Of a stretch of 64,000 nt of DNA, positions 18,700-44,945 are shown one piece after another. The position numbers and the translations under genes are program-made. The stretch comes from Paraburkholderia ginsengiterrae (GTDB lineage Bacteria > Pseudomonadota > Gammaproteobacteria > Burkholderiales > Burkholderiaceae): positions 1 through 64,000 of the forward strand of contig NZ_LXKA01000055.1 of assembly GCF_001645125.1 (NCBI RefSeq). Direction: 5' to 3'. The notes below the pieces were generated by a model that was not told the origin of the DNA, ran no database searches, and worked only from the letters and a program-made list of their open reading frames with translations. Position 1 is the stretch's first letter. Each line of letters starts with the position of its first letter.

Positions 18700-19911
18700 T
18701 TACTGAATCGCGCTCGCCAAAGCCTGCGCCGTCGCTGCGGAGAGCGTCCACCCCAGGTGTCCGTGCCCGGTGTTGTAGAACACACCTCGCCGCTTCCCTT
18801 GGCCGACCTTGGGCAGCATGCTCGGCAGCATGGGGCGCAAACCGGCCCAGGGAATCACGCGCGCGGTCGACACCTCGGGGAAATAACGGCGCGTCCAATC
18901 GACCAGCGGCGCGATCCGGTCCGAGCGGATATCCCGATTGAAGCCGTTGATCTCCGCCGTGCCCGCCACGCGGAAACGGTCCGCGCCGAGCCGGCTCGTG
19001 ACGATTTTCGCGCTGTCGTCGAGCAGGCTCACCCACGGCGCTCGCTGCTGGCTGATTTCGTCGTCGAGGCAGACCGTGATCGAATAGCCTTTGACCGGGT
19101 AGATGTTCACGTGGTCGCCCAGCATCGTCGCGAAGTCGCGGCTCTTCACGCCGGCGCAGACGACGATGCGCTCGAAACCGAAGCGCTGCGATTCGCCTTC
19201 GAGATCGACCATCAGCGAGAACTGTCCTTCGGTGGGCTGTTCGATCGACGTGATCTGCGCGTCGTAATGAAACTGAACGCCGTGCCGCTCGCATGCCTGA
19301 GCCAGTCCGCGCGTGAACTTGTGAATATCGCCGGTCGAATCGGAAGGCGTGAAAAAGCCGCCGAAAAAGTCGCCTTGCAGCGTGGGTTCGATGCGCTGCA
19401 ACTCGCTTGCCGTGACCGGGCTGCGGTCGAGTCCGCCCTCGCGCAGCAGTTCGTTCACCTTGCTGGCGGCGTCGAATTCCTTGCGGGTCTTGTAGATGTG
19501 CAGAATGCCGCGCCGTTCGAGATCGAAGTCGATGCCTTCCTTCTCGGCGATCGAAAACAGGTGCTCGCGCGCGGCAATCGCGAGGCGTACGGTTTCGACG
19601 GTATTCGCGCGATAGTGCGGAATCTGCCGCAGGAATTCACCCATCCACGAGTACTTGTGCCAGGTGGGCGCGGGATTGAGCAGCAGTGGGGCGTCGCGTG
19701 TGAGCATCCAGCGCAGGCCCTTCAGCACGGTGGCCGCGCTGTTCCAGACTTCGGCATTGCTGGCCGATAGCTGGCCGCCGTTGGCGAACGATGTTTCCAT
19801 TGCCGCATAGCGATGGCGTTCGAACACGGTGACGTGGTGGCCGCGTTGGGCGAGGGCGTGCGCGGTCGTGACGCCGGTAATGCCGGCGCCGATAATGGCG
19901 ATTCGTGACAT
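18700..19911 (-). CDS. FAD-dependent D-amino acid dehydrogenase (DadA family)
   Basis: A 403-residue flavoprotein that oxidatively deaminates amino acids and passes electrons to the respiratory chain. The N-terminal FAD-binding motif is IAIIGAGITGVTTAHALAQR, followed by METSFANGGQLSASNAEVWN, a DadA signature. The middle holds KFTRGLAQACERHG and GFERIVVCAGVKS, and the C-terminal FAD contact is FYNTGHGHLGWTLS. It is about 25 residues shorter than E. coli DadA. A tandem glycine riboswitch lies directly upstream, so glycine or a related small amino acid is a likely substrate or signal; activity on glycine (ThiO-like) is inference. No alanine racemase (dadX) gene is nearby. Confidence 0.88.
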   Translation of the reverse strand: MSRIAIIGAGITGVTTAHALAQRGHHVTVFERHRYAAMETSFANGGQLSASNAEVWNSAATVLKGLRWMLTRDAPLLLNPAPTWHKYSWMGEFLRQIPHYRANTVETVRLAIAAREHLFSIAEKEGIDFDLERRGILHIYKTRKEFDAASKVNELLREGGLDRSPVTASELQRIEPTLQGDFFGGFFTPSDSTGDIHKFTRGLAQACERHGVQFHYDAQITSIEQPTEGQFSLMVDLEGESQRFGFERIVVCAGVKSRDFATMLGDHVNIYPVKGYSITVCLDDEISQQRAPWVSLLDDSAKIVTSRLGADRFRVAGTAEINGFNRDIRSDRIAPLVDWTRRYFPEVSTARVIPWAGLRPMLPSMLPKVGQGKRRGVFYNTGHGHLGWTLSAATAQALASAIQ

Positions 19912-19964
19912 GTCATGGTCCAGAGTAGTTGAGCATCACCGGTGTCGATTTCGTGTCGAAACCG

Positions 19965-20195
19965 GCGTCGATGCCCCATCTGTCCATGTACCTGAGAGTT
20001 TCTTCCCGCGGCAGTCGGACCCATTGTGTGATAGCAGGCCGTATGCGGGGAATCCCCTTCGGTGGGCGCACGGGGTCATTCCATGCGCCGCTCTCCAGAT
20101 GTTCCTGCTGCGCGGTCCTTTTGCCTGAGAGTTTCCGGGGCGGTTGCTCCGTCGGCGTCGTCACGAACGTCTGACGATCTCTCCCGCGCTGCATT
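19965..20195 (-). promoter_or_regulatory. tandem glycine riboswitch
   Basis: Read on the minus strand, two aptamers occur in series. Aptamer 1 has GGGAGAGAT, then CGCCGACGGAGCAA, then AAACTCTCAGGCAAAAGGAC. Aptamer 2 has CTGGAGAGC, then CGCCCACCGAAGGGG, then AAACTCTCAGGTACATGGAC. These are the conserved cores of the gcvT-type glycine riboswitch, with its short linker. An expression-platform stem of CCGGT/ACCGG with flanking repeats follows about 50 bases before the start of the DadA-type gene. Glycine binding normally turns the downstream gene on, usually for glycine catabolism. Confidence 0.93.
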
Positions 20196-20316
20196 GCAGA
20201 ACGGTGTGACAATACCTTTCAAAAAGATCGGCCGCAAGTGTTTCGTGCGATGCAGTGCGCAATCGGTTTTGTCTGCGGATCTATCAGATTCCGCGCCCGC
20301 TCAGCGGCGCGGCGTG

Positions 20317-20859
20317 TCATCCGCCTGGCGTTTTGTACATGATGGTGGTCGCGTCGAACGCTTGATGATGCGGGTCGCGCGCGTAGCCTGGAATCACCCC
20401 GGCCGTCCGATATCCCAGCGCGGTATAAAGCGGCTCGGCGTGATCGCCGGTTCGGGTGTCGAGCGTGAGCAGGCTGCGTTGCAGTGCATGCGCATGGCGC
20501 TCCAGTTCGGTCATCAAGGCTCTCGCGATGCCTTGGCGGCGGAATGCGGGGTGAACCAGCAGCTTGCGCACCTCCGCGCGATGCCGCTGATTCGGCATCG
20601 TGTCGTAATCGAGTTGCACGGTGCCGGCAATCGCGTCGCCCTGACGCGCGACGAACAGCATCAACCCGCCCGCGCGCAACGAAGGCAACACCTTGCCGCG
20701 CCAGAACGCTTCGCTCTCATCGACGCCGAACGGCATCACAAAGCCGACGCTGGCGCCGTTGTGGACGCAGGCCTGCAACAAGGCGCCGAGTTCGGCTAGA
20801 TGCTGTACGAGGTCATTGTCCGAAAAGGTGGCGATGGTCGTGACGGTAGAGACGCTCAT
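20317..20859 (-). CDS. GNAT-family N-acetyltransferase
   Basis: A 180-residue GNAT acyltransferase. The acetyl-CoA binding motif A is LLVHPAFRRQGIARALM, preceded by the beta-4 strand with GTVQLDYDTMPN and followed by LLTLDTRTGDHAEPLYTALG with Tyr in the terminal motif. It starts 7 bp after the stop of the XRE-cupin regulator and is probably in its operon. The substrate may be a small molecule toxin or amino acid; none can be named. The gene ends before the riboswitch region of the DadA gene, which is read in the same direction. Confidence 0.87.
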   Translation of the reverse strand: MSVSTVTTIATFSDNDLVQHLAELGALLQACVHNGASVGFVMPFGVDESEAFWRGKVLPSLRAGGLMLFVARQGDAIAGTVQLDYDTMPNQRHRAEVRKLLVHPAFRRQGIARALMTELERHAHALQRSLLTLDTRTGDHAEPLYTALGYRTAGVIPGYARDPHHQAFDATTIMYKTPGG

Positions 20860-20865
20860 GCTGGC

Positions 20866-21438
20866 TCACACGATAAAGAGAAGGTAGCGGGCCGCGCTGT
20901 GCGCGGGCGTCATGAAAGCGCTGGGGCCGAATAGCTGATAGCGCAGGCAGTCGCCTGGCCGCAGGTCATGGCTATGGCCGTCGACCGTGATTTGCAGTTG
21001 CCCTTCGAGCAGCAGTAGGTGATGTTCGAGGCCGGGCCGCGGCGAGGCGTCGTACGTGATGTGCACACCGGCATCGAGCTCGCACTCCAGTACCTCCCCG
21101 CTCAGCGCCTGCGCAGGCGGCGATACCGAGCGCCGCCTGAAGCCGACGCCGGGGTCCGTCCAGAGCGGCTGCGTGGCGCGTGGCACCAGCGGCGCGAAGT
21201 CCTCTTCGACCATGTGCATGAGGCGCGACATCGGCAAGCCGTACGCGACGCAGAGCTTGCCGAGCACGCTCGCCGTGGGGCTGACGGCGGCGTTCTCCAG
21301 GCGTGACAGGGTGGCGCGGCTGACGCCGCTGAGCCGCGCGAGGTCGTCGAGCGACCAGTTGCGCTCGGCGCGCAGCGCCCGCAGACGCTGGGCAATGCGA
21401 CGGTCGATGGTGTCGTCGTCGGAAGGTGTGATTTCCAT
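20866..21438 (-). CDS. XRE-family regulator with C-terminal cupin domain
   Basis: A 190-residue repressor-like protein. The N-terminal HTH (about residues 12-66) reads LRALRAERNWSLDDLARLSG then VSRATLSRLENAAVSPTA. The C-terminal half is a cupin: L-E-C-E-L-D-A-G, H-H-L-L-L-L-E-G-Q and the R-P-G-D-C segment. Such proteins sense small ligands such as amino acids or polyamines. The ATG chosen (MEITPSDDD) lies inside a 29-bp palindrome; a TTG 12 codons upstream is actually the likely -35 box. The transcript would therefore begin at or next to the ATG, giving a leaderless or near-leaderless, self-regulated gene. The GNAT gene follows in the same operon. Confidence 0.87.
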   Translation of the reverse strand: MEITPSDDDTIDRRIAQRLRALRAERNWSLDDLARLSGVSRATLSRLENAAVSPTASVLGKLCVAYGLPMSRLMHMVEEDFAPLVPRATQPLWTDPGVGFRRRSVSPPAQALSGEVLECELDAGVHITYDASPRPGLEHHLLLLEGQLQITVDGHSHDLRPGDCLRYQLFGPSAFMTPAHSAARYLLFIV

Positions 21439-21474
21439 ATTCGGGAAATTATCCTGAATATGGAAAATAGTCAA
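21435..21474 (-). promoter_or_regulatory. promoter and 29-bp palindromic operator of the XRE-cupin gene
   Basis: On the minus strand, TTGACT (21474-21469) and TAATTT (21451-21446) are spaced 17 bp, with the ATG only 7 bases beyond. A near-perfect dyad at 21435-21463 (outer arms CCATATTC/GAATATGG, inner GGA/TCC) covers the -10 box and the start codon. This is the expected arrangement for autorepression. Confidence 0.6.
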
Positions 21475-21483
21475 TGCACGGAT

Positions 21484-22008
21484 CTACAACGCCGCCACAT
21501 CGCGCGAGAAGGTCCACCCCTCCTTGGACTGAGGACGCAAGAGCAGGTAGAACGCCACGAAGTGCGTGATCATCAGCAGCGGCACGTAGAGGATGGGAAT
21601 CCCGTACATCGAGCCCAGCTGCCCCGCCATGGAAGGCAGGTCGATCCGGGTCGCGTGGTAATAGTCGACGAGGATGTCGACCGCCCCCACGAGATTGAAC
21701 GCGACCACCAGAACCCAGAAGAGCGGACGGATCCTGAAGGCGAGCAGCGCCAGCATCGCCAGCACGCCGGTTGCGAAGTCGCCATAAGCGGCGAACTGCG
21801 TGAAGCTGGCCGGCAGGCTGGGGCCGACCACGCCGGGCAGCATGAAGACCAGCCCGAAGAAGCGGAAGCTATGCAGCGTCGCGATGGCGCGTTGCGCGTC
21901 GGCGCGATCCATCGACTTGAGCCTGGGCAGCCCATACGGCACGAAGCAAAGCAGCCAGGCAACGTAGCCCAGAACGAGATGGATGCGGAAAAGCGTTTCG
22001 GTCGACAT
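21484..22008 (-). CDS. conserved membrane protein, function unknown
   Basis: A 174-residue protein with four or five predicted membrane helices: FRIHLVLGYVAWLLCFVPYG, LVFMLPGVVG, TGVLAMLALLAFRI, FWVLVVAFNLVGAVDILVDY and IPILYVPLLMITHFVAFYLL. The charged loops are short. It begins 13 bp after the end of the broken methyltransferase gene and should be cotranscribed with it. No family with known function is recognised; a quinone-, lipid- or stress-related role would be a guess. Confidence 0.8.
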   Translation of the reverse strand: MSTETLFRIHLVLGYVAWLLCFVPYGLPRLKSMDRADAQRAIATLHSFRFFGLVFMLPGVVGPSLPASFTQFAAYGDFATGVLAMLALLAFRIRPLFWVLVVAFNLVGAVDILVDYYHATRIDLPSMAGQLGSMYGIPILYVPLLMITHFVAFYLLLRPQSKEGWTFSRDVAAL

Positions 22009-22021
22009 GGCGGAACTCCTG

Positions 22022-22852
22022 TCAGGAATGGGTCGACGCGGCCTCGAACACCGCGCTCAGGATGCCGAGCCGGCCTTCCATGAGATTGCGTCCGAGGTTG
22101 GCGGCAAGTTGTGCAAATTCCGGCCCCATGACCACGCCGAGATTGGGCGACGGCGCGGGCCCCGACGCGCGCATTTGAAGCGCCCAGTCTTTGGCGGCCT
22201 CGGTGTCGTCTTGCTAGGTCAGCGTGCGGAAACCGGCCGCTTCGATTGCCTCGCGCGTCACCCCGGCCTCGAGGAGCCAGCTCGTTGCCGGCGTGCGTGC
22301 CCACGGAAGCGGATAATGAGGTTCGCCGCCCTTCAGCACGACGTCGTACGTCGCAAACCTGCCGCCTGGCTTCAGCACGCGCCGCATCTCGCGGTAGAGC
22401 TGCGCACGGTCGGCGATGTTCATCGCCACATGCTGAAGCAGCACGACATCGAAGCGGGCGTCGTCGAAGGGAAGCTCCAGTGCACTGGCGGTCTGGAACG
22501 CCACCTGCGCGCTTTGTCCGGTGCGCGTGGTCAGGTAGCGCGCGGCGTCCACGAAGGGCTCGCTGAGGTCGACGCCGGTCACCTTGCAGCCATAGGCCGC
22601 GGCCAGAAAGCGTGCCGGCCCGCCGACGCCCGAACCGACGTCGAGCACCGCACTGCCGGCCGTAATCCCGGCGAGCCTGGCAAGCTCGACGGTCGCGGCG
22701 AGCCCGCGGGTGTGAAACTGGTCGAGCGTGCCCAGCTGCTGGGGCGTGAGCGGTTGGTCCTCCGGGCCAAAGGCAGCGAGCACCGCTTTCAGCCGCTCGG
22801 TGAGGCCGGTTGCGCGGTAGTGGTCGCGCACGCCATCAAGGCGATCAGTCAT
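22022..22852 (-). pseudogene. SAM-dependent methyltransferase interrupted by an in-frame amber codon
   Basis: The reading frame from MTDRLDGVRDHY encodes a class I methyltransferase: SAM motif VLDVGSGVGGPARFLA, then VTGVDLSEPFV, and post-motif DVVLLQHVAMNIAD with RVLKPGGRFA. After 212 residues (FRTLT) a TAG at 22214-22216 stops it, but the same frame continues for another 63 codons starting QDDTEAAKDWALQMRASGPA and ends at TGA. The extension keeps protein-like composition (L-G-V-V-M-G-P-E-F...L-M-E-G-R-L-G-I-L) typical of this family's C-terminus, so the ancestral protein was about 276 residues. TGG or CAG to TAG would explain it. Either a recent pseudogene, a sequencing error, or amber readthrough. 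The N-terminal part could still fold. Confidence 0.8.
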
Positions 22853-22980
22853 TGCAGGTTACCTCGTCAATTCAGGAGCTATCGGTGATCGGAGTCCGGC
22901 AGAGCGCGGAATTCCCGATCCGCAAGCTCAGTGTAGGATCGCTTCCTGCGAGTGACTATCCACGCTAATATCGACGCGTT

Positions 22981-23964
22981 ATGAAGCAAAACTTCACAGT
23001 CCGGCAAGGCGCGCTCGACGGCGTCGAGGCGTTCCTGAGTGTTGTCCAGCACCGCAGTTTTCGGCGGGCGGCGGCAGCACTTGGCGTCACGCCTTCGGCA
23101 ATCAGTCAGACGGTGCGCGTACTCGAGTCGCGCATCGGCGCAGCGCTCTTCGTTCGCACAACGCGTAGTGTCGGCCTGACCGAAGCCGGCGAACGGTTCC
23201 TGTCGCGGGCCAAGCCCGCCTTCGAGGAACTCGTCGCGGCAGGCGAGGTGGCGCGTGAACTCGGGCAGCGGCCGTCCGGGCTGCTGCGCCTCTCGGTGCC
23301 GAGTTCCGTCATGCCCACGGTGCTCGAGCCGCTGGTCGCGTCCTTCTGCCGTGCCTATCCCGAGGTCGAAGTCGAGATCGTTGCCAACGCGAAGTTCGTC
23401 GATCTCGCTGCGGAAGGGTTTGACGCAGGCGTCCGGATGGGCCAGTTCATCGAGGCCGACATGGTCGCGGTACGGCTGACGCCGCCGTTTCCGTTCGAGG
23501 TAGTTGGCAGCCCGGAGTATCTGACGGGGCGGACGCGGCCGGAGCGCATCGAGGATCTGCGTGACCATGCCTGTCTGCGCTTGCGCCGCACGAACGGGTC
23601 GATCGCGCCCTGGTCTTTCGTCGACGGCAACAAGCCGGTCGAGGCCATCGTCGCGGGCCCGCTCATCGCGCAGGACTATCCGACACTCGTCGGCGCGGCG
23701 ATTCGAGGGGTGGGGCTCGCACAGGTGCCGCGCCCGGTTGCCGCCGCGGCGCTTGCGGACGGGCGTTTGCAGGCGTTGCTAACGCCCTTCGCGGTGATCA
23801 CGCCAGGCGTATTTCTGTACCACTCTGGCAGAAATCAGGTCTTGCCCAAACTGCGCGCGTTCATCGACCACGTCAAATTCCGCGGCGCTGACGCGGGGGA
23901 TGCCGGACCAACTAGTGAGCGGCGCGCAACGCCTCGTCCGCCACCGCCAGCCGGGAAGCCATGA
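22981..23964 (+). CDS. LysR-family transcriptional regulator
   Basis: A 327-residue LysR regulator. The N-terminal winged HTH reads LDGVEAFLSVVQHRSFRRAA then LGVTPSAISQTVRVLESRIG with F-V-R-T-T-R-S-V-G-L-T. The effector domain contains L-R-L-S-V-P-S and SLV-type strands through GVGLAQVPRP. It is divergent from the methyltransferase/membrane-protein operon, the usual place for a LysR target. The C-terminal ~25 residues (Pro/Arg-rich) extend beyond the common LysR end and overlap the SulP gene on the other strand by 53 bp. No clear Shine-Dalgarno sequence precedes the ATG. Confidence 0.9.
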   Translation: MKQNFTVRQGALDGVEAFLSVVQHRSFRRAAAALGVTPSAISQTVRVLESRIGAALFVRTTRSVGLTEAGERFLSRAKPAFEELVAAGEVARELGQRPSGLLRLSVPSSVMPTVLEPLVASFCRAYPEVEVEIVANAKFVDLAAEGFDAGVRMGQFIEADMVAVRLTPPFPFEVVGSPEYLTGRTRPERIEDLRDHACLRLRRTNGSIAPWSFVDGNKPVEAIVAGPLIAQDYPTLVGAAIRGVGLAQVPRPVAAAALADGRLQALLTPFAVITPGVFLYHSGRNQVLPKLRAFIDHVKFRGADAGDAGPTSERRATPRPPPPAGKP

Positions 23965-26161
23965 CCTTGACGACAAAGCGATGAATCTGCTGGGCGGTCA
24001 CCGGATCGTCGCGTTCGAGCGTATGCAGCGACTCGAGCGTCAAACGCCGGACGCGCGCGGGCCCCTCGGCGAGCACATCCGCACTGCGCGCCTGCTGCGT
24101 GTACACCGCCATTTCGCCGACTATCGTCCCCTGTCCGAACGAGCGCAGCCTGAGAGACCGGCCGCGCGCAAGCGGCAATAACACCGTCACCCGGCCGCGC
24201 TCGACAAAGTACATCGCATCGCCGGGTTCGCCTTGACGGAACACCGCTTGCCCCGCATCGAGTTCGCGCACCTCCAGAAGGGTCAACAACTTGTTTAGCG
24301 CTTCTGACGTGAAATGCGGCGCGAGAAGTGCCTCGAAGTCCATATTGCCCTCGCTGACATCGGGCGCAGCGAGAGGGTCCGACGCCAGCAACGTATCTTC
24401 GACCCATTCCAGTCCCGCATCCAGCGTAGCGAATTCGTGAATCCGCAGGTTCAGCGTGCCGGTTTTCATGAGCAACTCACGCGAGCGTGCGGGCAGTCCC
24501 ATCAGCACCAGGTCCGCGTCGCGCGTCGCGCATAGCTGCCTGAGCTTGACGAAGCTGAGCGATACCGACGCGTCCATGCCGGAGGTCGAAGCGAAGTCGA
24601 GGACAACGAAACGTATGCGTTTCGGACCGTGTGCGGTCAGCCTTTCGCGCACGCGCTGCAAGATCGAATTGGCCGTGCCGAAGAAGAGGAATCCTTGCAG
24701 GCACGTTCCACACACCTGCGTACCGAGTTCGCGTAGCCGTTGCGTTGCTTCGATACTGCGCTCGACATTCGACGTGCGCGTGCTGCCGTCGAACTCCATG
24801 CGCACGCAACTGACGCGGCCATACAAGAGTGCGAACATCACGCATGCGGCAATGATGCCGGCTATCACACCGGCGACGACGCCGTAGAACGCAATGGCGC
24901 CCAGAATGAGCGGCACGAGCAGATACTCGTGCCAGTTGAGCTTGCTATACGCACCGACCAGCCACTGGATCAGCAGCCGCAGTCCCATGAATAACTGCAG
25001 CCCAACCAGCACCGGCACCGGAAAAAGCGCAACCAGGCCGGGCCAGACGGCCAGCACGAGCAGGCACGCAAGGGAGGCGAATACGCCCGCCATGCGGCTC
25101 GACGCGCCGGCGCGCGCGTTGAGCATCGACCGGTTGTACGACTGGTAGCCGACCATCCCACCCAACATTCCGCTCGCGATGTTGGCGATGCCGGCCGCGC
25201 GCATCTCGCGGTTCAGGTCGATGTCTTCGCCGGTGGCCGCGCCAATCGCCGTCGAATTCATCAGGATCGTGATCGCCGAGATCGACGTGACCATGAGCGT
25301 CTCCGGCAAGTGCGCGGCGATGGCTGACCAGTCGACGCCGCCATGTGCCAGGGATCCCAGCGATGTAGGCAGATGCAACTCAGGAAGACGGAACGGATGT
25401 GCCGCCACGCGCGGCAGCAGTAACCCGGCGCTGCGGGCGTCGTCGATCGACAGGCCGGCAACAGGCAGTAGCAGGTAAAACAGCGCGACGCCGAATGCCA
25501 GCGTAATCGGCAGGGCAGCGGCGTGTTTCGAGGTGCGCGCCAGCAGCGTGGCCAACGCACAGACCAGCACGGCGGGTGTCCACATCAGCCAGTTCAGATG
25601 CGTCACCAGCGCCAGGCTGTGCCAGTTCAATGGCTCGCCGGTCACGACGCGAAACGCGCCCGCCATCAGCAGATAGCCGGTGCCGGCGAGGAAGCCTCCC
25701 AGCACCGGGTAGGGGAGGAATTGCAGCGAACGGCTGCGCCTCGAAGAACCAACCGCATACAGAATGATTCCCGTCACCACCGAACACAGCGCGATGGTAA
25801 TCAGCACCGTTAGCAGAATCGTCTGCGGCGTCCCGCCGTCGGCCCGCACACTGCTGGCGACACCGGCCGCCACACCGGCAAGAAACGCCGTTGCGTTGCC
25901 GTCGGGTCCGCCGATGTTCACGCGCATCGAGCTCGTCAGCGAGATCACCAGCGCCGTCACCACGCAACTGATGAACGCCGTGGGAACACCAAGCCCGGCG
26001 TAACGGGCGAGATCCGCGCTGAAGATCAGCGTGCCCAGGCTCATGGCGTAGCAGAGCATGACCAGGGTCGATACCATGCCGGCCGACAGGTCGCCGAGCA
26101 GGCCCGTCATGCGCGGCCCGGCGCGGGCATCGGGTGACGGAACTGTCGTGGCTGGCTTCAC
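23912..26161 (-). CDS. SulP-family anion transporter with STAS and cyclic-nucleotide-binding domains
   Basis: A 749-residue inner-membrane SulP (SLC26) transporter. The membrane part (about residues 19-450) includes YAMSLGTLIFSADLARYAGL and VNIGGPDGNATAFLAG, the N-terminal SulP signature, and GMLGGMVGYQSYNRSMLNAR. A STAS domain follows (VLDFASTSGMDASVSLSFVK), then a cNMP-binding domain in the last 130 residues with RQGEPGDAMYFVERGRVTVL and the phosphate-binding cassette GEMAVYTQQARSADV (Glu 683, Arg 692). Both cassette residues needed for cAMP/cGMP are present. The start is GTG with GGGGAG at correct spacing, which fixes the start over a longer upstream frame. Transport of sulfate, bicarbonate or a dicarboxylate cannot be told apart. 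It is divergent from an adenylate cyclase gene. Confidence 0.9.
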   Translation of the reverse strand: MKPATTVPSPDARAGPRMTGLLGDLSAGMVSTLVMLCYAMSLGTLIFSADLARYAGLGVPTAFISCVVTALVISLTSSMRVNIGGPDGNATAFLAGVAAGVASSVRADGGTPQTILLTVLITIALCSVVTGIILYAVGSSRRSRSLQFLPYPVLGGFLAGTGYLLMAGAFRVVTGEPLNWHSLALVTHLNWLMWTPAVLVCALATLLARTSKHAAALPITLAFGVALFYLLLPVAGLSIDDARSAGLLLPRVAAHPFRLPELHLPTSLGSLAHGGVDWSAIAAHLPETLMVTSISAITILMNSTAIGAATGEDIDLNREMRAAGIANIASGMLGGMVGYQSYNRSMLNARAGASSRMAGVFASLACLLVLAVWPGLVALFPVPVLVGLQLFMGLRLLIQWLVGAYSKLNWHEYLLVPLILGAIAFYGVVAGVIAGIIAACVMFALLYGRVSCVRMEFDGSTRTSNVERSIEATQRLRELGTQVCGTCLQGFLFFGTANSILQRVRERLTAHGPKRIRFVVLDFASTSGMDASVSLSFVKLRQLCATRDADLVLMGLPARSRELLMKTGTLNLRIHEFATLDAGLEWVEDTLLASDPLAAPDVSEGNMDFEALLAPHFTSEALNKLLTLLEVRELDAGQAVFRQGEPGDAMYFVERGRVTVLLPLARGRSLRLRSFGQGTIVGEMAVYTQQARSADVLAEGPARVRRLTLESLHTLERDDPVTAQQIHRFVVKVMASRLAVADEALRAAH

Positions 26162-26511
26162 AGTGCTCCCCGGTAAGGGCGGACGGAATCTCGCCTCGGC
26201 CGTGCGGTTCGCGTGGCGCGCTGCCGTTGGGTCTTGGTCGACCCTCACCGATCGTTCCGGAGGACGAACGACTGCACGTTGCGTCTCGCGACTCGAGTGT
26301 GCGCCTCCGGACACCATGGCCGGTACACGATGCAGTATCCGGCGTCGCCGCAACCAGTGTCAAACCCGGCGTCTGGTGTGCTGCGGCAAGCCACCGTGGT
26401 TTTGGCCGAATCGGCATCCACGTCGTCGCCGGTACCCCGTATCCGCCTCCTTCACGTTGGACGTACACTGCCCGGTATGGGTGGTCGAGCGTACCGGATT
26501 GGGCGGCGGCG
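26162..26511. promoter_or_regulatory. divergent promoter region of SulP and adenylate cyclase genes
   Basis: A 350-bp region between two divergent starts. It is GC-rich with no obvious -10 box and no TGTGA-N6-TCACA Crp site. Longer reading frames on both strands cross it but lack family features. It presumably carries both promoters. Confidence 0.4.
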
Positions 26512-29500
26512 ATGGATATCGGTCAGTGGCTGCAGGCGTTGGGCCTCGAGCAATACGCAGCGGCATTTGCCGACAACGACATCGACTTCGCGATGCTGGC
26601 GCAGCTCGACGACGCCGATCTGAAAGAGCTCGGCGTTCTCTCGCTCGGGCACCGCAAACGCCTGCTGGCGGCGATCGCCGCGCAGCACGGCGCTCCGCCG
26701 GGCGCGCAACCGGCCGCGGTGAATTCACCCGCGAGCGAGCGCCGGCAAGTCACCATTCTCTTTGCCGATCTGTGCGGTTTTACCGCGCTGTCGCAAACGC
26801 TCGATCCCGAAGAGTTGCGCGAATTGACAGGGCGTTATACGGCACTCGTCGACGGGATCGTCCTCGGTTATGGCGGGACGATCGACAAGCACATCGGCGA
26901 CGCCGTGATGGCGATTTTCGGCGCACCGCGCGCGCACGACACCGATCCGCTGCGCGCCGTGCGTGCCGCGCTGGAGATTCATGAGGCACTTAATGGACTG
27001 TGCGAGCGCGCGTCGCCGCAGCTGAGAGCGCACGTCGGCATCGCGAGCGGCGAAGTTCTGGCGGGGCCGCTGGAACGGGCGGACGTGCGCGACTACACGG
27101 TGCTGGGCGACTCCGTGAATCTGGCTGCCCGGCTGGTTGCCGCCGCCGGTCCCGGAGAAACGCTGCTCTCGGAGAGCGTGCATCGCGCGCTCGGTGAGGG
27201 CGTGCTGTGCGACGCCGGCGGCGCGATGAGCTTCAAGGGCATCGATTCGCCGGTGCGCGTGTGGCGCTTGCGCGGTCTCGCCTTTGAACCCGTCACGGCA
27301 AGCCGCAGCGTGTTTGTCGGCCGCAAGGCCGAACTCGAGCAGTTCAAGGGCCTCGCCCGCGCGTGCCTCGAACAGCGGGCGGGCCATGTCGTCTATGTCC
27401 GAGGCGAAGCGGGCATCGGCAAGACGCGGCTCGTGGATGAGATGCGCCGTTTCGTCGAAACGCTGGGCTTTGCCAGCCACCGCGCGCTCGTGCTGGATTT
27501 CGGCGTGGGCAAGGGCCAGGATCCGGTGCGCGCCATTGTCGGCAGCCTGCTGGACCTGCGGCCCGCGGACGGGCCGGATGAACAGCGCGCGGCTGCCGCA
27601 CGGCTTGCCGCATCGGGGGCCGTCGGCGCCGATCAGCTGATGTTTCTCCACGACATTCTCGACCTCGCGCAAACCGGCGAATGGCGCACGCTCTACGACG
27701 CCATGGACAACGCCGCGCGCACACGCGGCAAGCGCGCGGTCATCGCGGCGATCACTGCGGACGTATGCCGGCGCAGGCCGATCATGATCGTCGTGGAGGA
27801 CCTGCATTGGGCCGATCCGCAGGTGCTCGGCGATCTGGGCGCGCTCGCCGCGGCGATTGCGGGCGGTCCGGGGCTGCTGGTGATGACCTCGCGCGTAGAG
27901 GGCGATCCGCTCGACGCGGCATGGCGCGCAGGTTGCCGTGGCACTCCTTTCGCCACGATCGACCTCGGCCCGCTGCGCGGCGATGAAGCGCTGAGCCTCG
28001 CCGGCACGTATATCGATGCCACCGAGCGTGTCGCGCTTGCCTGCGTCGCGCGAGCCGGCGGCAATCCGCTGTTCCTCGAGCAGCTGCTGCACAACGCCGA
28101 GGAGGGCAGTGAGGAGGCGGTTCCCGCGACGATCCAGAGCCTCGTGCTGGCGCGCATGGACCGGCTGACGGCCCGCGACCGCGAAGCCTTCCAGGCCGCC
28201 GCGGTCATCGGGCAGCGTTTCGGACTTGCCTTGCTGCGGCGCTTGATCAATGAGCCGGACTACGTGTGCCACGGACTCGTCGCCAACGCGCTCGTCTTGC
28301 CGGAAGGCGAAGATTATCTGTTCGCCCACGCGCTCATTCAGGAGAGTGCCTACTCGACGCTGCTGCGCTCGCGCCGGCGCGACCTGCATCGCCTCGCCGC
28401 CGACTGGTTTGCGGCGACCGATCCCGTGCTGCGTGCCCAGCATCTCGACCGCGCCGAAGACGAGCGGGCGCCTCGCGCGTATCTGGACGCAGCCGTAGCG
28501 CAACGCGCGGCCTATTTCACCGACGCGGCATTCCGGCTGGTCGAGCGCGGTCTGCAAATCGTGCAAGGCGATGAGGATCGCCACGCGCTGATTTGCATCA
28601 AGGGCGAATTGCAGCGCGATCTGGGCGACATTGCCGCCTCGATCGCGACTTACCGTGAAGCGGTTGCCGGCGCGCCGGACGAAGCCAGTCTTTGCCAATC
28701 CCAGCTTGGGCTCGCCGAAGGGCTGCGGGTCAGCGAAGGCCTCGCGGAAGCGCTTACGCTGCTCGACGCGGCTCAGCAAGTGGCGCACCGGCTGGATCGC
28801 GTGCCGGAACTCGCGCGGCTGCATCACCTGCGCGGCAACATCCTGTTTCCGCTTGGCCGGATCGACGATTGCCGCGCCGAACATGAGCGCGGACTCGCCT
28901 ATGCAAGGCGCCTCGGCTTGCCGGAAGCGGAGGCGCGTGCGCTCGGCGGTCTTGCGGACGCCGCCTACGCGCAAGGACGCATGCGCACCGCCTTCGAACA
29001 TTTCAGCCAATGCGTTGCGTTGAGCCGCGAACACGGCTTCGGCCGCATCGAGGTCGCCAATCGCTCGATGACCGGCTTCAGCCGGATCTATCTCAATCAG
29101 GCCCGCGCCGCGCGCGAGGAAGCCAATGCCGCCGCGCGCGCCGCGGCGCTGGTCGGTCAGCCCCGGGCGCAGATGCTGTGCGAAACGTTAGGGGTTTTTG
29201 TCTGCTGCGAAATGGGCGATCTGCCGGCTACGCTGATCCATCTCGAGCGTGAGACGCAGATCATCCGTCAACTCGGGGCGCGCCGTTTCGAGGCGCAGAA
29301 TCTGGAAATGCGCGCGCGGGTGCTGCTCGACAGCGGGCGTCTGCGGGAGGCGGCCGAATTGCTGCGCGAAGCGCTGAAGATTTGCCACGAGGTGGGGCCG
29401 CAGTTCAGCGCACCCAAGACGGTGAGCGCACTGAGCCGTGCCGTCGATGACGACGGCGAGCGCGCAAGCCTGCTCGCCGAAGGCGCGCGGATGTTGCAGC

Positions 29501-29796
29501 GCGGCGCGGTGGGCCACAATCATTTGTGGTACTACCGCGACGCGATCGAAGCGACGTTGTCCGCCGGCGACGCGGAAGGCGCCTTGCGCTATGCCGCGGC
29601 GCTCGAAGATTACACCCGCGTCGAGCCGCTGCCGTGGGCGGAACTGTTCGTCATGCGCGGCCGCGCGCTGGCCCACGTGCTGCAGGACGGTTCGAGCAAG
29701 GATGCGCTGAGTGAACTCGCGCGGGCACGCGTGGCGCTCGTCGAAGCCGGGTTCAGCAACTATCTGCCCGCGGTGGACGCGGCGCTTGCCGCGTAG
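26512..29796 (+). CDS. class III adenylate cyclase with SAM, AAA ATPase and TPR-like regions (soluble-cyclase type)
   Basis: A 1094-residue multidomain protein. Residues 1-60 are a SAM domain (IGQWLQALGLEQYAAAFADN). The cyclase homology domain spans about 75-230: metal Asp 86 (FADLCGFT) and Asp 130 (HIGDAVMAIFG), adenine-selecting Lys 126 and Asp 194 (DYTVLGDSVN), transition-state Asn 203 and Arg 207 (NLAARL). All are present, so it should make cAMP. An AAA/STAND-type ATPase follows with Walker A GEAGIGKT (299-306) and Walker B MIVVEDLHWAD, then alpha-helical TPR-like repeats to the end. This layout resembles mammalian soluble adenylate cyclase, which bicarbonate activates. The start is the ATG before DIGQWLQ; the ribosome-binding site is weak. 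Divergent from the SulP/cNMP transporter. A cupin gene follows 51 bp on. Confidence 0.92.
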   Translation: MDIGQWLQALGLEQYAAAFADNDIDFAMLAQLDDADLKELGVLSLGHRKRLLAAIAAQHGAPPGAQPAAVNSPASERRQVTILFADLCGFTALSQTLDPEELRELTGRYTALVDGIVLGYGGTIDKHIGDAVMAIFGAPRAHDTDPLRAVRAALEIHEALNGLCERASPQLRAHVGIASGEVLAGPLERADVRDYTVLGDSVNLAARLVAAAGPGETLLSESVHRALGEGVLCDAGGAMSFKGIDSPVRVWRLRGLAFEPVTASRSVFVGRKAELEQFKGLARACLEQRAGHVVYVRGEAGIGKTRLVDEMRRFVETLGFASHRALVLDFGVGKGQDPVRAIVGSLLDLRPADGPDEQRAAAARLAASGAVGADQLMFLHDILDLAQTGEWRTLYDAMDNAARTRGKRAVIAAITADVCRRRPIMIVVEDLHWADPQVLGDLGALAAAIAGGPGLLVMTSRVEGDPLDAAWRAGCRGTPFATIDLGPLRGDEALSLAGTYIDATERVALACVARAGGNPLFLEQLLHNAEEGSEEAVPATIQSLVLARMDRLTARDREAFQAAAVIGQRFGLALLRRLINEPDYVCHGLVANALVLPEGEDYLFAHALIQESAYSTLLRSRRRDLHRLAADWFAATDPVLRAQHLDRAEDERAPRAYLDAAVAQRAAYFTDAAFRLVERGLQIVQGDEDRHALICIKGELQRDLGDIAASIATYREAVAGAPDEASLCQSQLGLAEGLRVSEGLAEALTLLDAAQQVAHRLDRVPELARLHHLRGNILFPLGRIDDCRAEHERGLAYARRLGLPEAEARALGGLADAAYAQGRMRTAFEHFSQCVALSREHGFGRIEVANRSMTGFSRIYLNQARAAREEANAAARAAALVGQPRAQMLCETLGVFVCCEMGDLPATLIHLERETQIIRQLGARRFEAQNLEMRARVLLDSGRLREAAELLREALKICHEVGPQFSAPKTVSALSRAVDDDGERASLLAEGARMLQRGAVGHNHLWYYRDAIEATLSAGDAEGALRYAAALEDYTRVEPLPWAELFVMRGRALAHVLQDGSSKDALSELARARVALVEAGFSNYLPAVDAALAA

Positions 29797-29847
29797 CGGA
29801 GCCGGGCGGAGCATACTCGCCGGAATCCCGGCCCCGGAGCGGCGATC

Positions 29848-30174
29848 ATGAGCGCGCAACAAGAAGCGGCATTCACCTTCACCGACAGCAACGTCGCGCC
29901 ATGGCTGGACTCGAAAGCAGCCCGTGGGGTCACGGTGAAAAATCTCGGCAAGGTGAATGGACGCGCAATGCAGTTAGTACGCTTCGAGCCTGGCGTGGTC
30001 TTTCCGGATCATCGGCATGATGGGCCCGAGTTTATCTTCATGCTGGAAGGCGAGGCGATTCAGAACGGGCACGTGTTGGCGGGCGGCTGGAGCGGTGTCG
30101 CGGCGCAAGGCACGGTCGACGAGCGGTTCCGTAGCGATACCGGCTGTCTGTTCCTGCTCTGTTACGCTGTGTGA
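29848..30174 (+). CDS. cupin-domain protein (ChrR-like)
   Basis: A 108-residue single cupin. Metal-binding motif 1 is the run FEPGVVFPDHRHDGPEFIFM-L-E-G-E with two His and a Glu; motif 2 is weaker (T-G-C-L-F-L-L). It resembles anti-sigma ChrR cupins in sequence but is a lone domain. A GGAG site precedes the ATG. It lies 51 bp behind the adenylate cyclase gene, so cotranscription is possible. Function unknown. Confidence 0.8.
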   Translation: MSAQQEAAFTFTDSNVAPWLDSKAARGVTVKNLGKVNGRAMQLVRFEPGVVFPDHRHDGPEFIFMLEGEAIQNGHVLAGGWSGVAAQGTVDERFRSDTGCLFLLCYAV

Positions 30175-30214
30175 TGCCGCGCCAGCGATATAACAACAAC
30201 GGATGGAGATTCGA

Positions 30215-30622
30215 GTGAACAGCCGTTCCTTGCCTGAGATTGAAAGATTGATCGCAACGTTCTATGCCGCCTTCGACAATCGAAATTCGCGACCGCCGGC
30301 GATCGCGGAACTTCGCCAAATGTTCACCGCCCAGGCCACGATTACACGCCTGACGCCCGATCGCATCGAAACATGGACGACAGACGCTTTTATCGCGCCA
30401 CGCGCCGCCATGCTTTCAGACGGGACGCTCACGGAATTCCACGAGTGGGAAGTCGATGGCCAGACAACCGCATTCGACAGCATTGCCAGCCACTGCTCTC
30501 ACTACAGAAAAGCGGGCATGCTGAATGGCGCACCCTACGGTGGCGAGGGGCGCAAGTTCATCCAGCTTTGTCGGATCGATGACCGCTGGCTGATCAGTTC
30601 GATTCTTTGGCAGGACGTCTGA
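30215..30622 (+). CDS. NTF2-like/SnoaL-fold protein, function unknown
   Basis: A protein of about 135 residues starting at GTG (MNSRSLPEIERLI); GGAG lies at good spacing before it, better than the ATG four codons upstream at 30203. The pattern I-E-R-L-I-A-T-F-Y-A-A-F-D-N-R, then a W-T-T-D-A-F-I-A-P-R segment and a C-terminal KFIQLCRIDDRWLISSILWQ strand fit the cone-shaped NTF2-like/SnoaL fold. Such proteins can be isomerases, hydrolases or non-enzymatic binders. It follows the cupin gene on the same strand by 40 bp, so it may be the third gene of that operon. Confidence 0.72.
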   Translation: MNSRSLPEIERLIATFYAAFDNRNSRPPAIAELRQMFTAQATITRLTPDRIETWTTDAFIAPRAAMLSDGTLTEFHEWEVDGQTTAFDSIASHCSHYRKAGMLNGAPYGGEGRKFIQLCRIDDRWLISSILWQDV

Positions 30623-30683
30623 TTGCACGTCCCCTACACAAACCGCATCCGCCATAAGTCGGTCACAGGCCTCGTCGCGCGCT

Positions 30684-31124
30684 TTACCTGACGCTCCCCG
30701 GCAGCACGACAAAGTCTTCGATCTTGTCGATCTTGTCGAGCGCCCGCAGCAAGGGTTCGGGTGGGGACGTGAGCTTACGGTTGGTCAGATCGAGCCAGCC
30801 TACTGTGGACGTGACCCGCGCGGCCAGCGTCTCACCCCGAAAGAACTCATTGCGGATGACCATCCGGCTGCCGTCGTTCGAAAGACCCGCCATCGTCAGG
30901 CGTACGGTCATGCGATCGAGCAGGTGAAATTCGCGAAAATATTCGATCTCGTCTTTCATGACGACGGGACCGATGCGCAGCCGCATGAACTCCGTCATGG
31001 AGAACCCTTGCTCCGCGAAGTAAAGCATTCGAACGTCGGCGGACTTGTCGAGATAGGCCGTGTTCTTCATGTGCGAATTGAAGTCCATGTCCCCCCAGCC
31101 GGCGAACAGTTCCTGCTCGAACAT
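30684..31124 (-). CDS. acyl-CoA thioesterase (4HBT hotdog family)
   Basis: A 146-residue hotdog-fold protein. The sequence WGDMDFNSHMKNTAYLDKSA carries the 4HBT-type catalytic Asp followed by N-x-H-M. IEYFREFHLLDRMTVRLTMA and V-I-R-N-E-F-F-R-G-E are the central strands, and V-G-W-L-D-L closes the fold. It should hydrolyse an acyl-CoA or related thioester. The ABM-type gene ends up upstream on the same strand with a 15-bp gap, so the two form an operon. The substrate is not defined. Confidence 0.87.
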   Translation of the reverse strand: MFEQELFAGWGDMDFNSHMKNTAYLDKSADVRMLYFAEQGFSMTEFMRLRIGPVVMKDEIEYFREFHLLDRMTVRLTMAGLSNDGSRMVIRNEFFRGETLAARVTSTVGWLDLTNRKLTSPPEPLLRALDKIDKIEDFVVLPGSVR

Positions 31125-31139
31125 GCTTTCTCTCCCTGG

Positions 31140-31451
31140 TTATCCCTGTACCGCCTGGTTCTTCAGACCGAGCACGTCGATCGGCTCGATGACCGGCGGG
31201 CTGGCAAGCAATTCACCCGCGTGCGCCATCAGTGCCTGCGCAATGGGACCGTTCAGGTGTGCCTGCCGGTCGGCTTCGGAGGAAAACGCGTCGAATATGC
31301 CAAAGGTGGTGGGTGAGAGGCGCAAAGCGAACCAGATCGGGGTGGTGGCCTCCTGATTGGCCAGATCGAGACCGGCCGCGAGAAAGTCCGCGACGGCCTG
31401 CTCCTTGCCGGGTTTTGCTTCGAGCCGTGCAAACAATGCATGTTTGATCAT
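31140..31451 (-). CDS. putative quinol monooxygenase (ABM domain)
   Basis: A 103-residue ferredoxin-like alpha/beta protein of the antibiotic-biosynthesis-monooxygenase family: KHALFARLEAKPGKEQAVAD at the start and IWFALRLSPTTFGIFDAFSS in the middle, then the A-H-L-N-G-P-I-A helix. Such proteins act as dimers on quinols or small aromatics without a bound cofactor. The ATG has GGAGAGCAGAG upstream, which decides against the 12-codon-longer frame. It is the first gene of a two-gene operon with the thioesterase. Confidence 0.85.
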   Translation of the reverse strand: MIKHALFARLEAKPGKEQAVADFLAAGLDLANQEATTPIWFALRLSPTTFGIFDAFSSEADRQAHLNGPIAQALMAHAGELLASPPVIEPIDVLGLKNQAVQG

Positions 31452-31685
31452 CTCTGCTCTCCAGAATCCGCGCCCAGGCGGGTGCAAAGCGCACAGCGAG
31501 TTGCCGTGCCGGTTCCCATGCTACCGCGTCAGGACGATGACGACGCAACCGCGGCCGTGCGCCGCGCCGTTGCGCAGATTCGTGCCCGGCCACGGCTCGG
31601 GCCGTTTATGATAGAGCCCACCCATCAGAAGGCGCCGCCCGGCCCATCATCCACGAGCTCCGGCGACTGTGCCGCAACGTCATCC

Positions 31686-32402
31686 ATGAATTCCACTCCT
31701 GACGCCACCTCCCGTCCTTCGATTCGCGCGTTGACCTTGCTTGAAGGGCGCGTGCTCGGCGTGCTCGTCGAAAAGCAGCACACGGTGCCGGACAGTTATC
31801 CGCTGTCGCTGAACGCGCTGACCCTGGGCTGCAATCAGAAAACCGGCCGCTCGCCGGTCATGAACGCCACCGAAGCCGAAGTGCTGACAGCCGTCGACGG
31901 CTTGAAGCGGCTGAGCCTGGTGATGGAGGGCAGCAGCAGCCGCGTGCCGCGCTTCGAGCACAACCTGAACCGGGTGCTGGGTTTGCCGAGCCAGTCGGCG
32001 GCGTTGCTCACCACCTTGCTGCTGCGCGGGCCGCAAACGGCTGCCGAACTGCGCCTGAACAGCGCGCGGCTGCATGGCTTTGCCGATATCTCATCGGTCG
32101 AAGCCTTTCTCGACGAACTCGCCGCCAACGAACCGCCACGAGTCGTGAAGCTCGCGCGCACGCCGGGCGAGCGTGAGAATCGCTGGATGCATCTGCTCTG
32201 CGGGGAAGTCAGCGCGGCCGAGCTGGCGCAGCCAGGGGGTGAAGACGAGGAGGTGCCTTTGTCCGCGTTCGAGGCAGTGAAGGCCGAACAGAAACGGCTC
32301 GCCGACGAAGTGAGCCGGCTTCAGGCCGTGGTGCGCCGCATGGCCGCAGAGTTGGGGATCGACGCGAGCGATCTCACGGCGGGCGAATCAGCCGCCGAAT
32401 AA
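31686..32402 (+). CDS. yceH: YceH family protein (DUF480)
   Basis: A 238-residue conserved protein of the UPF0502/YceH family. Signatures are LLEGRVLGVLVEKQHTVPDS and YPLSLNALTLGCNQKTGRSP near the N-terminus, which lie in paired winged-helix-like domains, then LLLRGPQTAAELRLNSARLH and a C-terminal coiled segment LADEVSRLQAVVRRMAAELG. Function is not firmly known. The ATG chosen starts MNSTPDATSR; an upstream ATG at 31608 would add 26 low-complexity residues. It is divergent from the ABM/thioesterase operon. Confidence 0.92.
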   Translation: MNSTPDATSRPSIRALTLLEGRVLGVLVEKQHTVPDSYPLSLNALTLGCNQKTGRSPVMNATEAEVLTAVDGLKRLSLVMEGSSSRVPRFEHNLNRVLGLPSQSAALLTTLLLRGPQTAAELRLNSARLHGFADISSVEAFLDELAANEPPRVVKLARTPGERENRWMHLLCGEVSAAELAQPGGEDEEVPLSAFEAVKAEQKRLADEVSRLQAVVRRMAAELGIDASDLTAGESAAE

Positions 32403-32467
32403 GACCTCCTTCGCCTTTTGCTCACACTGAACCCGCAAAAGGCGAATCGCCAACAGAAAGTCGCGGC

Positions 32468-33343
32468 TTAAAACTTGTAGTTCACGGAAGCGATCGTATT
32501 CAGCTCGAAGCGCTTTTCGGTGATCGGGCTATTCGCCGCGTTATGTTCGAGGCGCCCGAAAGTTGCGGCCACCGAGCCGTTCCAGTGGCGGGAAAAATCA
32601 TACGTCACCTGGGCGTTCAGATGAACGTCCCGTATTCCGGCGCTGGTGTTGTACGTGGGCAATCCCGAGGCCGCGCTTTGCTGTCCCGAGACGCCGAAAA
32701 ACGTCCGCGTGTACGTGCCGTTCGCCCACGTCACACCCGGGCCGACGGAAAACAGCCAGCCGCCCACCGGCGCCGAGGCCACCAGGTCGGTACTGACCGT
32801 CGTGCCCTGGTGATTCCCCGCAATGTCCTGATACAGCTGCACCGAGCCAGTGAACGCCCACCACGTATAGTCGGCGAACAGGCGCAGCTTGGGACCGCCG
32901 TCCACATCGCCGAGACCATGCAGGTGCTGCGGATCGTCCGACTCCTTGCGCGACTGGAAATCGAAGCTCAGCGAAGCGCCCACGTGATACGCCGGCCCGC
33001 GCAGCACATTCACGCCGAGCACGTCCGGGCCTTGCGAGAAAAACCGGTCGTCGTAAGAGATGTCGAGCGCCGGGAACGGTATGTAGCTCAACTGCCGCGA
33101 GCCCGGATATCTCGGCGTGATCACGAGGCCGGGGCCGACACCGATTTTCCATTTGCTCTCGGTGGACGCGCCCGTGCCGGTGGTCGGGCTCGAGTCCGTG
33201 CTCGTACCTGCATTCGTGCCCGCCGCTGCATCGTCCGCATGGGCGGCTTGCGCGGCGCCGAGACCCAGCGCCGCGGCCACCAGCAACGACAGCCTCGACA
33301 CCTGCGCCCCGCGCACCGCCTTGTACTGCGTGAGCGCCCTCAT
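32468..33343 (-). CDS. MipA/OmpV-family outer-membrane protein
   Basis: A 291-residue outer-membrane protein. A signal peptide is clear (LSLLVAAALGLGAAQAAHAD). Then come the family's PGLVITPRYPGSRQLSYIPF strand and alternating beta-barrel strands to a final aromatic residue (SVNYKF). MipA scaffolds murein synthase with transglycosylase in E. coli, while OmpV-type proteins have other roles. The start ATG overlaps the TGA of the esterase gene by 4 bp (ATGA), so it is translationally coupled. It is the last gene of a three-gene operon. Confidence 0.9.
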   Translation of the reverse strand: MRALTQYKAVRGAQVSRLSLLVAAALGLGAAQAAHADDAAAGTNAGTSTDSSPTTGTGASTESKWKIGVGPGLVITPRYPGSRQLSYIPFPALDISYDDRFFSQGPDVLGVNVLRGPAYHVGASLSFDFQSRKESDDPQHLHGLGDVDGGPKLRLFADYTWWAFTGSVQLYQDIAGNHQGTTVSTDLVASAPVGGWLFSVGPGVTWANGTYTRTFFGVSGQQSAASGLPTYNTSAGIRDVHLNAQVTYDFSRHWNGSVAATFGRLEHNAANSPITEKRFELNTIASVNYKF

Positions 33344-43651: not shown

Positions 43652-43666
43652 CGCCGGATCCTCCTT

Positions 43667-44926: not shown

Positions 44927-44945
44927 GGACAGGGTCTCGTCGTAA

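Follow-up and report, generated by a model that had tools for sequence, protein, structure and literature searches.

A SulP transporter with a cyclic-nucleotide-binding domain and its exchangeable adenylate cyclase partners in Burkholderiaceae

The first 64,000 nucleotides of contig NZ_LXKA01000055.1 from Paraburkholderia ginsengiterrae (assembly GCF_001645125.1, genome size 8.53 Mb; this whole stretch is hereafter called the window) carry two divergent genes, one for a SulP-family transporter with a C-terminal cyclic nucleotide monophosphate (cNMP)-binding domain and one for a class III adenylate cyclase. The signature residues of both proteins are intact, the two genes are paired and co-inherited in the genus, the type of the partner cyclase switches between loci, and the version of the locus with a CHASE2-type cyclase carries a putative phosphodiesterase gene. 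We consider it moderately probable that the pair is a mobile signalling cassette in which locally made cyclic AMP (cAMP) gates the transporter. A cyclic-nucleotide link best explains why partners switch and why a putative phosphodiesterase gene has been added, and chance adjacency of the SulP and cyclase genes is very unlikely.

In the proposed mechanism, a cytoplasmic signal would engage the SAM, STAND-like and TPR parts of the cyclase, which is predicted to act as a homodimer because it has a single catalytic domain, and the enzyme would respond by making cAMP. The nucleotide would bind the SulP dimer at its C-terminal cNMP domain, which, acting via the STAS domain, would alter transport; in some relatives a phosphodiesterase may reset the signal. 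A sequence-only reading of the window, made without database searches, had envisaged a feedback loop encoded at the locus, and such a loop is no more than possible.

Pairing and partner exchange

A SulP with at least 70% identity is present in 44 of the 98 genomes of the genus; one copy (G035) is split in two open reading frames (ORFs), and a match at 26% in G068 was left out of the count. Cyclase A (69–100% identity) occurs in 41 genomes, every one of them with the SulP, and the remaining three SulP genomes carry a type B cyclase (42–46%) adjoining it. Counted together, type A or B is found in 44 of 44 genomes with the SulP versus 1 of 54 without it (G066, type B). These scans scored the best first-look candidates, up to 11 per genome for the SulP and 7 for the cyclase, and absences hold at that depth. 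The sequence-only reading had proposed looking for the same divergent pair in other genomes, and there it is: by coordinates the cyclase is adjacent to the SulP in 39 of the 44 genomes (35 type A, 4 type B), in convergent orientation in G075 (type B) and divergent in the rest. A gyrB tree built on 95 of the 98 genomes (G060 and G071 gave no match and G063 a partial one) yields 17 independent pairs differing in the SulP; the cyclase differs in the same way in 16.9 of them on average and in the opposite way in none (p ~1.5e-5).

Near the SulP in 49 named loci, the cyclase is found in 37 and each of the 12 other window neighbours in none; neighbours from 18700–33343 were sought up to 8 kb on each side at an identity of at least 35% over 60% of the length, contig ends cut some of the 49 stretches short, and two of the 49 come from strains of a single species. 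Twelve named SulP loci (Caballeronia, two titled Burkholderia) have no cyclase in the stretch covered, and each of the 12 genomes encodes a type A or B cyclase at another place, that of G871 as two pieces on two contigs.

Some loci show further variation. In Paraburkholderia saeva two overlapping ORFs take the place of a single SulP gene, next to a cyclase whose frame is open (L056:6866-9120, the same locus as L156); either the gene is broken or the sequence contains an error. L105:37-3678, L106:1-3657 and L107:379-4065 each hold, a few kb away from the SulP pair, a second protein resembling a SAM cyclase, whose purine-site residues are replaced and which is probably not an active cyclase. At L111:10755-12290 and L114:6832-8298 a further cyclase gene stands on the other side of the SulP, besides the divergent one; the former is a DUF5939-cyclase by Pfam, and the latter is nearly identical to it in the catalytic domain.

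SulP-cNMP proteins are widespread in genome surveys. In a contig scan for related SulP genes, the closest named relatives among the best 80 of 517 places are from Paraburkholderia; two wider surveys scored up to 2 candidates per genome, with 40 of 45 and 40 of 77 rows fetched. Identity bins were counted on 175 distinct of 180 proteins, SulP ORFs shorter than 600 aa (so the split P. saeva gene) or weaker than 1e-60 to the profile being dropped; the loci are not a random sample, odd and unlinked genus loci having been picked on purpose, and the 40–70% bin includes one locus at 69.9% (L134). A cyclase lies within 1.5 kb of the SulP in 43 of the 60 distinct loci at identities of at least 70% and in 13 of 20 at 40–70%. 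The pairing is a trait of Burkholderiaceae and a few others, and not of all SulP-cNMP proteins; a universal pairing was ruled out, few pairs having been found in order- and phylum-wide sampling.

In Caballeronia, Trinickia, Burkholderia and Paraburkholderia, SulP paralogues of 45–51% identity are followed immediately by a cyclase gene in the same orientation, the ORFs mostly overlapping. All three of these loci scanned with Pfam (L150, L054 and L171) have CHASE2-cyclases, and the catalytic domains of the others fall in the same clade. CHASE2 cyclases lie upstream of the SulP in L069 and L190, and one cluster holds two pairs (L134:4531-14729), a SAM cyclase divergent from a SulP followed by another SulP that is paired with a cyclase of the CHASE2 type. 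The partner at L052 (the same locus as L157) is a SAM-AAA cyclase, the D type, which has other residues in place of Lys, Thr and Asn at the purine site and is probably inactive. At another locus a response regulator (REC)-cyclase overlaps the SulP, following CheA, CheB and CheR in the same direction and beside a flagellin gene (L070:1052-9173); this arrangement suggests chemotaxis control of a transporter that would read cAMP. The catalytic-domain tree (43 rows, thinned at random) resolves A and B as sister groups, with A/B, the CHASE2 type and the D type in separate clades. In the SulP tree (73 of 105 rows, the main clade thinned at random), SulPs adjoining cyclase B are nested among those adjoining A, and the one adjoining D lies among those adjoining the CHASE2 type.

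Two-partner secretion genes (TpsA, TpsB) and a FecR-domain gene precede the SulP paralogue and CHASE2-type cyclase at L150:3107-12370, TpsA also does so at L149:1200-12400 (Pfam), and the same families lie in several of L134, L151–L154, L160, L171 and L054.

After the CHASE2-type cyclase comes a metallo-beta-lactamase-fold gene in 9 of the 11 Burkholderiaceae loci; in L069 the trio of SulP, cyclase and putative phosphodiesterase genes is present with a different order. Pfam PDEase_II was over its cut-off in all five proteins tested, and the best PDB match of the one compared is 3',5'-cyclic-nucleotide phosphodiesterase 1 (4ojv). The gene was found beside none of 10 cyclases away from a SulP (9 of them with CHASE2; flanks of about 4–7 kb), nor in those loci searched that hold the same type of pair as the window.

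The transporter and its substrate site

The window SulP exceeds the Pfam cut-offs for the membrane domain Sulfate_transp (PF00916; 3.8e-36, 125.1 bits, cut-off 23.2), STAS (PF01740; 5.6e-9, 36.2 bits, cut-off 22.6) and cNMP_binding (PF00027; 1.4e-17, 63.9 bits, cut-off 27.5), and Glu683 and Arg692 of the cNMP cassette are intact, which confirms the architecture and the cassette described from the letters of the window. By domain content (Sulfate_transp plus STAS) the protein belongs to the SulP/SLC26 superfamily, and it has these two parts in common, by sequence, with BicA, SLC26Dg and prestin. The genome has four SulP matches and 18 cNMP-domain matches, the window SulP included. The TIGR00815 model for sulP (sulfate permease) gives 96 bits against a cut-off of 380.45, and the NCBIfam BicA model (NF050096) gives 44.2 bits against 880.

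From BicA and SLC26Dg the window protein differs in its added cNMP domain, in having Thr298 in place of the carboxylate of transmembrane helix (TM) 8, and in having Asp87 at the start of TM3. HMMER aligns Thr298 with SLC26Dg Glu241 and with the BicA TM8 Asp, numbered 258 by the authors of a study of yeast Vsb1 (chain index 257). In that study the TM8 carboxylates of BicA and SLC26Dg are reported to be important for Na+ or H+ exchange (PMC13160679). Given the BicA score and Thr298, the BicA-type transport target considered in the sequence-only reading is unsupported. At the TM3 start the BicA chain has a Thr (a weak alignment, i-Evalue 53), and the SulPs with a TM8 acid have a BicA-like motif there. 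Arg344 in TM10 of the window protein aligns with prestin residue 399, which we take to be the anion-site Arg.

The two acids exclude one another: among 175 distinct SulP-cNMP proteins, 104 have an acid only at position 87, 58 only at position 298 and 13 at neither, and none has both. Arg344 is kept in 103 of the 104 TM3-acid proteins versus 7 of the 58 TM8-acid ones, and the two cassette residues of the cNMP domain, Glu and Arg, are retained together in 102 of 104 versus 38 of 58. At identities below 70%, a cyclase is nearby in 15 of 44 SulPs with the TM3 acid versus 2 of 71 without it (Fisher 7e-6, uncorrected for kinship or sampling). The exclusivity of the acids, together with the TM10 Arg, points to a possible change in both coupling and substrate site.

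Yeast Vsb1 (YGR125W), a vacuolar cationic amino acid transporter, is composed of SulP and STAS domains and a C-terminal RmlC-like domain needed for activity; it requires a carboxylate, Glu-278, at the N-terminus of TM3, and its authors regard nucleotide binding by the C-terminal domain as unlikely (PMC13160679). The window SulP is of the same architectural type, and its Asp87 fits the described place of Glu-278, Vsb1 being compared by description only. The places of Vsb1 Asp-223 and Tyr-227 in TM1 presumably correspond to Tyr38 and Leu42 here, judging by an SLC26 motif, and this would count against a Vsb1-type protein. A difference lies in Arg344, Vsb1 being reported to lack the anion-site Arg. 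We considered the window protein as a Vsb1-like, probably cationic carrier, and withdrew this reading because Arg344 aligns with the prestin-site Arg. The Asp87–Arg344 pair would fit a zwitterion, for instance an amino acid, or else an anion if Asp87 served in coupling. An anion as cargo, which the sequence-only reading assumed, is thus left with evidence on both sides, the alignment of Arg344 in its favour and the acid at the TM3 start against it.

A further comparison is offered by MlotiK1 (mll3241), which also joins a membrane transport unit to a C-terminal cNMP domain, and the cNMP domains match by sequence. MlotiK1, however, is a K+ channel, whereas the window SulP is of a secondary transporter family and is encoded beside a cyclase.

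The cyclase and the layout of the locus

The cyclase matches SAM_1 (1.6e-17), Guanylate_cyc (1.9e-21), AAA_16 (5.9e-14) and TPR_12 (9.5e-12) in Pfam. Class III catalysis uses two metal-binding Asp, a purine-binding Lys and Thr, an Asn and an Arg; Asp86, Lys126, Asp130, Thr196, Asn203 and Arg207 are all intact here, as is the Walker A Lys304, and on these residues the protein is a class IIIb cyclase. The earlier description of a divergent class III cyclase with SAM, STAND-type ATPase and TPR parts and a complete catalytic set is thereby upheld. The enzyme is the sole class III cyclase (PF00211) found in the genome, and no class I cyclase was found, III and I being the classes searched. Its nearest solved relatives are 2w01 and CyaB 3r5g. 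Mammalian soluble adenylyl cyclase (sAC, ADCY10) has an NTPase and a TPR-like C-terminus, both of which recur in the window protein; the latter matches ADCY10 chains and shares the class IIIb catalytic residues, including the Thr. It differs in having a single catalytic domain and, at its N-terminus, a SAM domain; with one catalytic domain it falls outside the tandem C1-C2 definition of mammalian-type sAC.

The two genes are divergent, each on the strand assigned to it in the sequence-only reading. The likely start of the SulP is the GTG at 26161: numerous orthologue matches start at residue 1 of that reading, and GTGAAG is kept there in all ten aligned intergenic regions, the window included. 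A TTG ORF reaching 26353 would then be an in-frame upstream extension of the SulP. The cyclase probably starts at the ATG at 26512, which the same ten regions keep, rather than at the GTG at 26134, whose longer frame is likewise an in-frame extension; an eleventh locus (L110) did not show the start pattern. With starts at 26161 and 26512, the two genes do not overlap. The promoter-like site in Table 1 is one occurrence against 0.7 expected in shuffles. Farther along the window, an ordinary RND efflux operon (outer membrane factor, HlyD-type adaptor and AcrB-type pump) occupies 42221–48185.

Table 1. Coordinates of the transporter–cyclase locus and its parts within the window
Feature	Position	Strand	Details	Basis
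SulP-family transporter with STAS and C-terminal cNMP-binding domain	23912..26161	-	749 aa; GTG start	Pfam, translation, aligned orthologues
cNMP-binding domain	24017..24268	-	residues 632-715; Glu683 (24113-24115), Arg692 (24086-24088)	Pfam, residues
STAS domain	24449..24700	-	residues 488-571	Pfam
Sulfate_transp domain	24962..26101	-	residues 21-400; Asp87 codon 25901-25903, Thr298 codon 25268-25270	Pfam
Divergent intergenic region	26162..26511	.	350 bp	kept starts
Promoter-like TTGACA-18-GATACT facing SulP	26334..26363	-		present in 8/10 aligned regions, window included
Class IIIb adenylate cyclase with SAM, catalytic, AAA_16 (STAND-like) and TPR parts	26512..29796	+	1094 aa; ATG start	
SAM domain of cyclase	26512..26679	+		Pfam
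Class III cyclase catalytic domain	26737..27249	+	Asp86, Lys126, Asp130, Thr196, Asn203, Arg207	residue alignment
AAA_16 NTPase region	27313..27858	+	Walker A Lys304	Pfam, residue check
TPR repeats of cyclase	28594..29385	+	residues about 695-958	Pfam

Alternative explanations and meaning

Several observations weigh against gating of the SulP by cAMP from its partner. Conservation as neighbours, on which the sequence-only reading had partly staked its proposal, holds inside the genus, but adjacency is rare beyond close kin: a cyclase lies within 1.5 kb in 0 of 28 distinct loci at 31–40% identity and in 4 of 67 below 31%. Even within the genus, 5 of the 44 genomes keep the SulP and cyclase A far apart, both genes being retained. 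Joint transfer inflates the co-occurrence, which is not fully independent evidence because adjacent genes can move together. With 18 cNMP-domain matches in the genome, the cAMP need not be meant for the SulP. The purine Lys is an Arg in several cyclases of type A (6 rows), the cyclase of the D type is degenerate, and the SulP of L069, which stands beside a cyclase and a putative phosphodiesterase, is without the cassette Arg. The phosphodiesterase gene was not found in the CHASE2-type loci L150, L134 and L190. The identity of the CHASE2-locus protein as a class II cAMP phosphodiesterase is itself probable and not certain, because the PDEase_II match is partial and RNase Z models score above the NCBIfam phosphodiesterase model, all of them below cut-off.

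Other explanations share part of the evidence. The loop first proposed, in which bicarbonate or another anion activates the cyclase and cAMP gates a SulP carrying that anion, now seems quite improbable. It can draw on Arg344, which aligns with the presumed anion-site Arg of prestin and is so consistently retained in the TM3-acid SulPs. The superfamily is, moreover, classically described as anion transporters (PMC13160679), and a Thr in the class IIIb purine site is held to predict bicarbonate activation (PMC3383692). Such activation of the window cyclase through Thr196 is possible by class, and nothing ties it to the transporter; nor is the residue specific, since types A, B and CHASE2 all have Thr. 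The input modules of the partner cyclases (SAM-AAA-TPR, CHASE2, response regulator) are unrelated to one another and reveal no shared anion input, so bicarbonate as the cyclase signal is unsupported, while on the transporter side the low BicA equivalog score, the absent TM8 carboxylate and the acid at the TM3 start count against the loop. The flow of information might instead be reversed, with the SulP acting as a transceptor whose occupancy, or whose buffering of cAMP, controls the cyclase. Pairing and partner switching are compatible with either direction, but the intact cyclic-nucleotide cassette in nearly all TM3-acid SulPs points to the SulP as the receiver, and we regard reversal as unlikely.

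It is distinctly unlikely that the enzyme is the cell's adenylate cyclase for CRP-type regulators, the SulP being CRP-regulated or merely sharing the promoter region. Its position as the only cyclase found in the two classes searched, along with 17 cNMP-domain matches besides the SulP, would fit that role; near absence of type A or B from genus genomes without the SulP, however, makes it unlike a housekeeping enzyme, and a simple pattern search found no CRP-type palindrome in the ten aligned intergenic regions. Least probable of all is that chance linkage or transfer accounts for the association of the two genes and that no regulatory link exists. The pair has differing neighbours across genomes, as a mobile segment would, but the neighbouring cyclase is replaced by other types, both genes are retained when unlinked, and the CHASE2 version carries a putative phosphodiesterase gene.

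Gating of the SulP by locally made cAMP would join components that are individually familiar, cNMP-gated channels and class IIIb cyclases being already known. No description of a cassette of exchangeable cyclase and SulP-cNMP protein was found in the titles and abstract beginnings of the open-access papers that the literature searches listed. The best-known role of cAMP in bacteria is that of a transcription-factor ligand. As a tentative and rather speculative generalization, SulPs with the TM3 Asp and TM10 Arg may be second-messenger-gated transporters, perhaps of zwitterions, which in Burkholderiaceae would form plug-in cassettes with an exchangeable cyclase (SAM-STAND-TPR, CHASE2 or, in one genome, REC within a chemotaxis operon) and a signal that a phosphodiesterase may reset. 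A SulP protein should not be taken automatically for an inorganic anion carrier. If the proposed gating is correct, a cyclase and a cAMP-reading transporter would constitute an exchangeable unit, which, in the versions with a putative phosphodiesterase, would amount to a complete post-translational cAMP circuit, and the locus would provide a simple genetic system for the gating of SulP/SLC26 proteins through the STAS domain.

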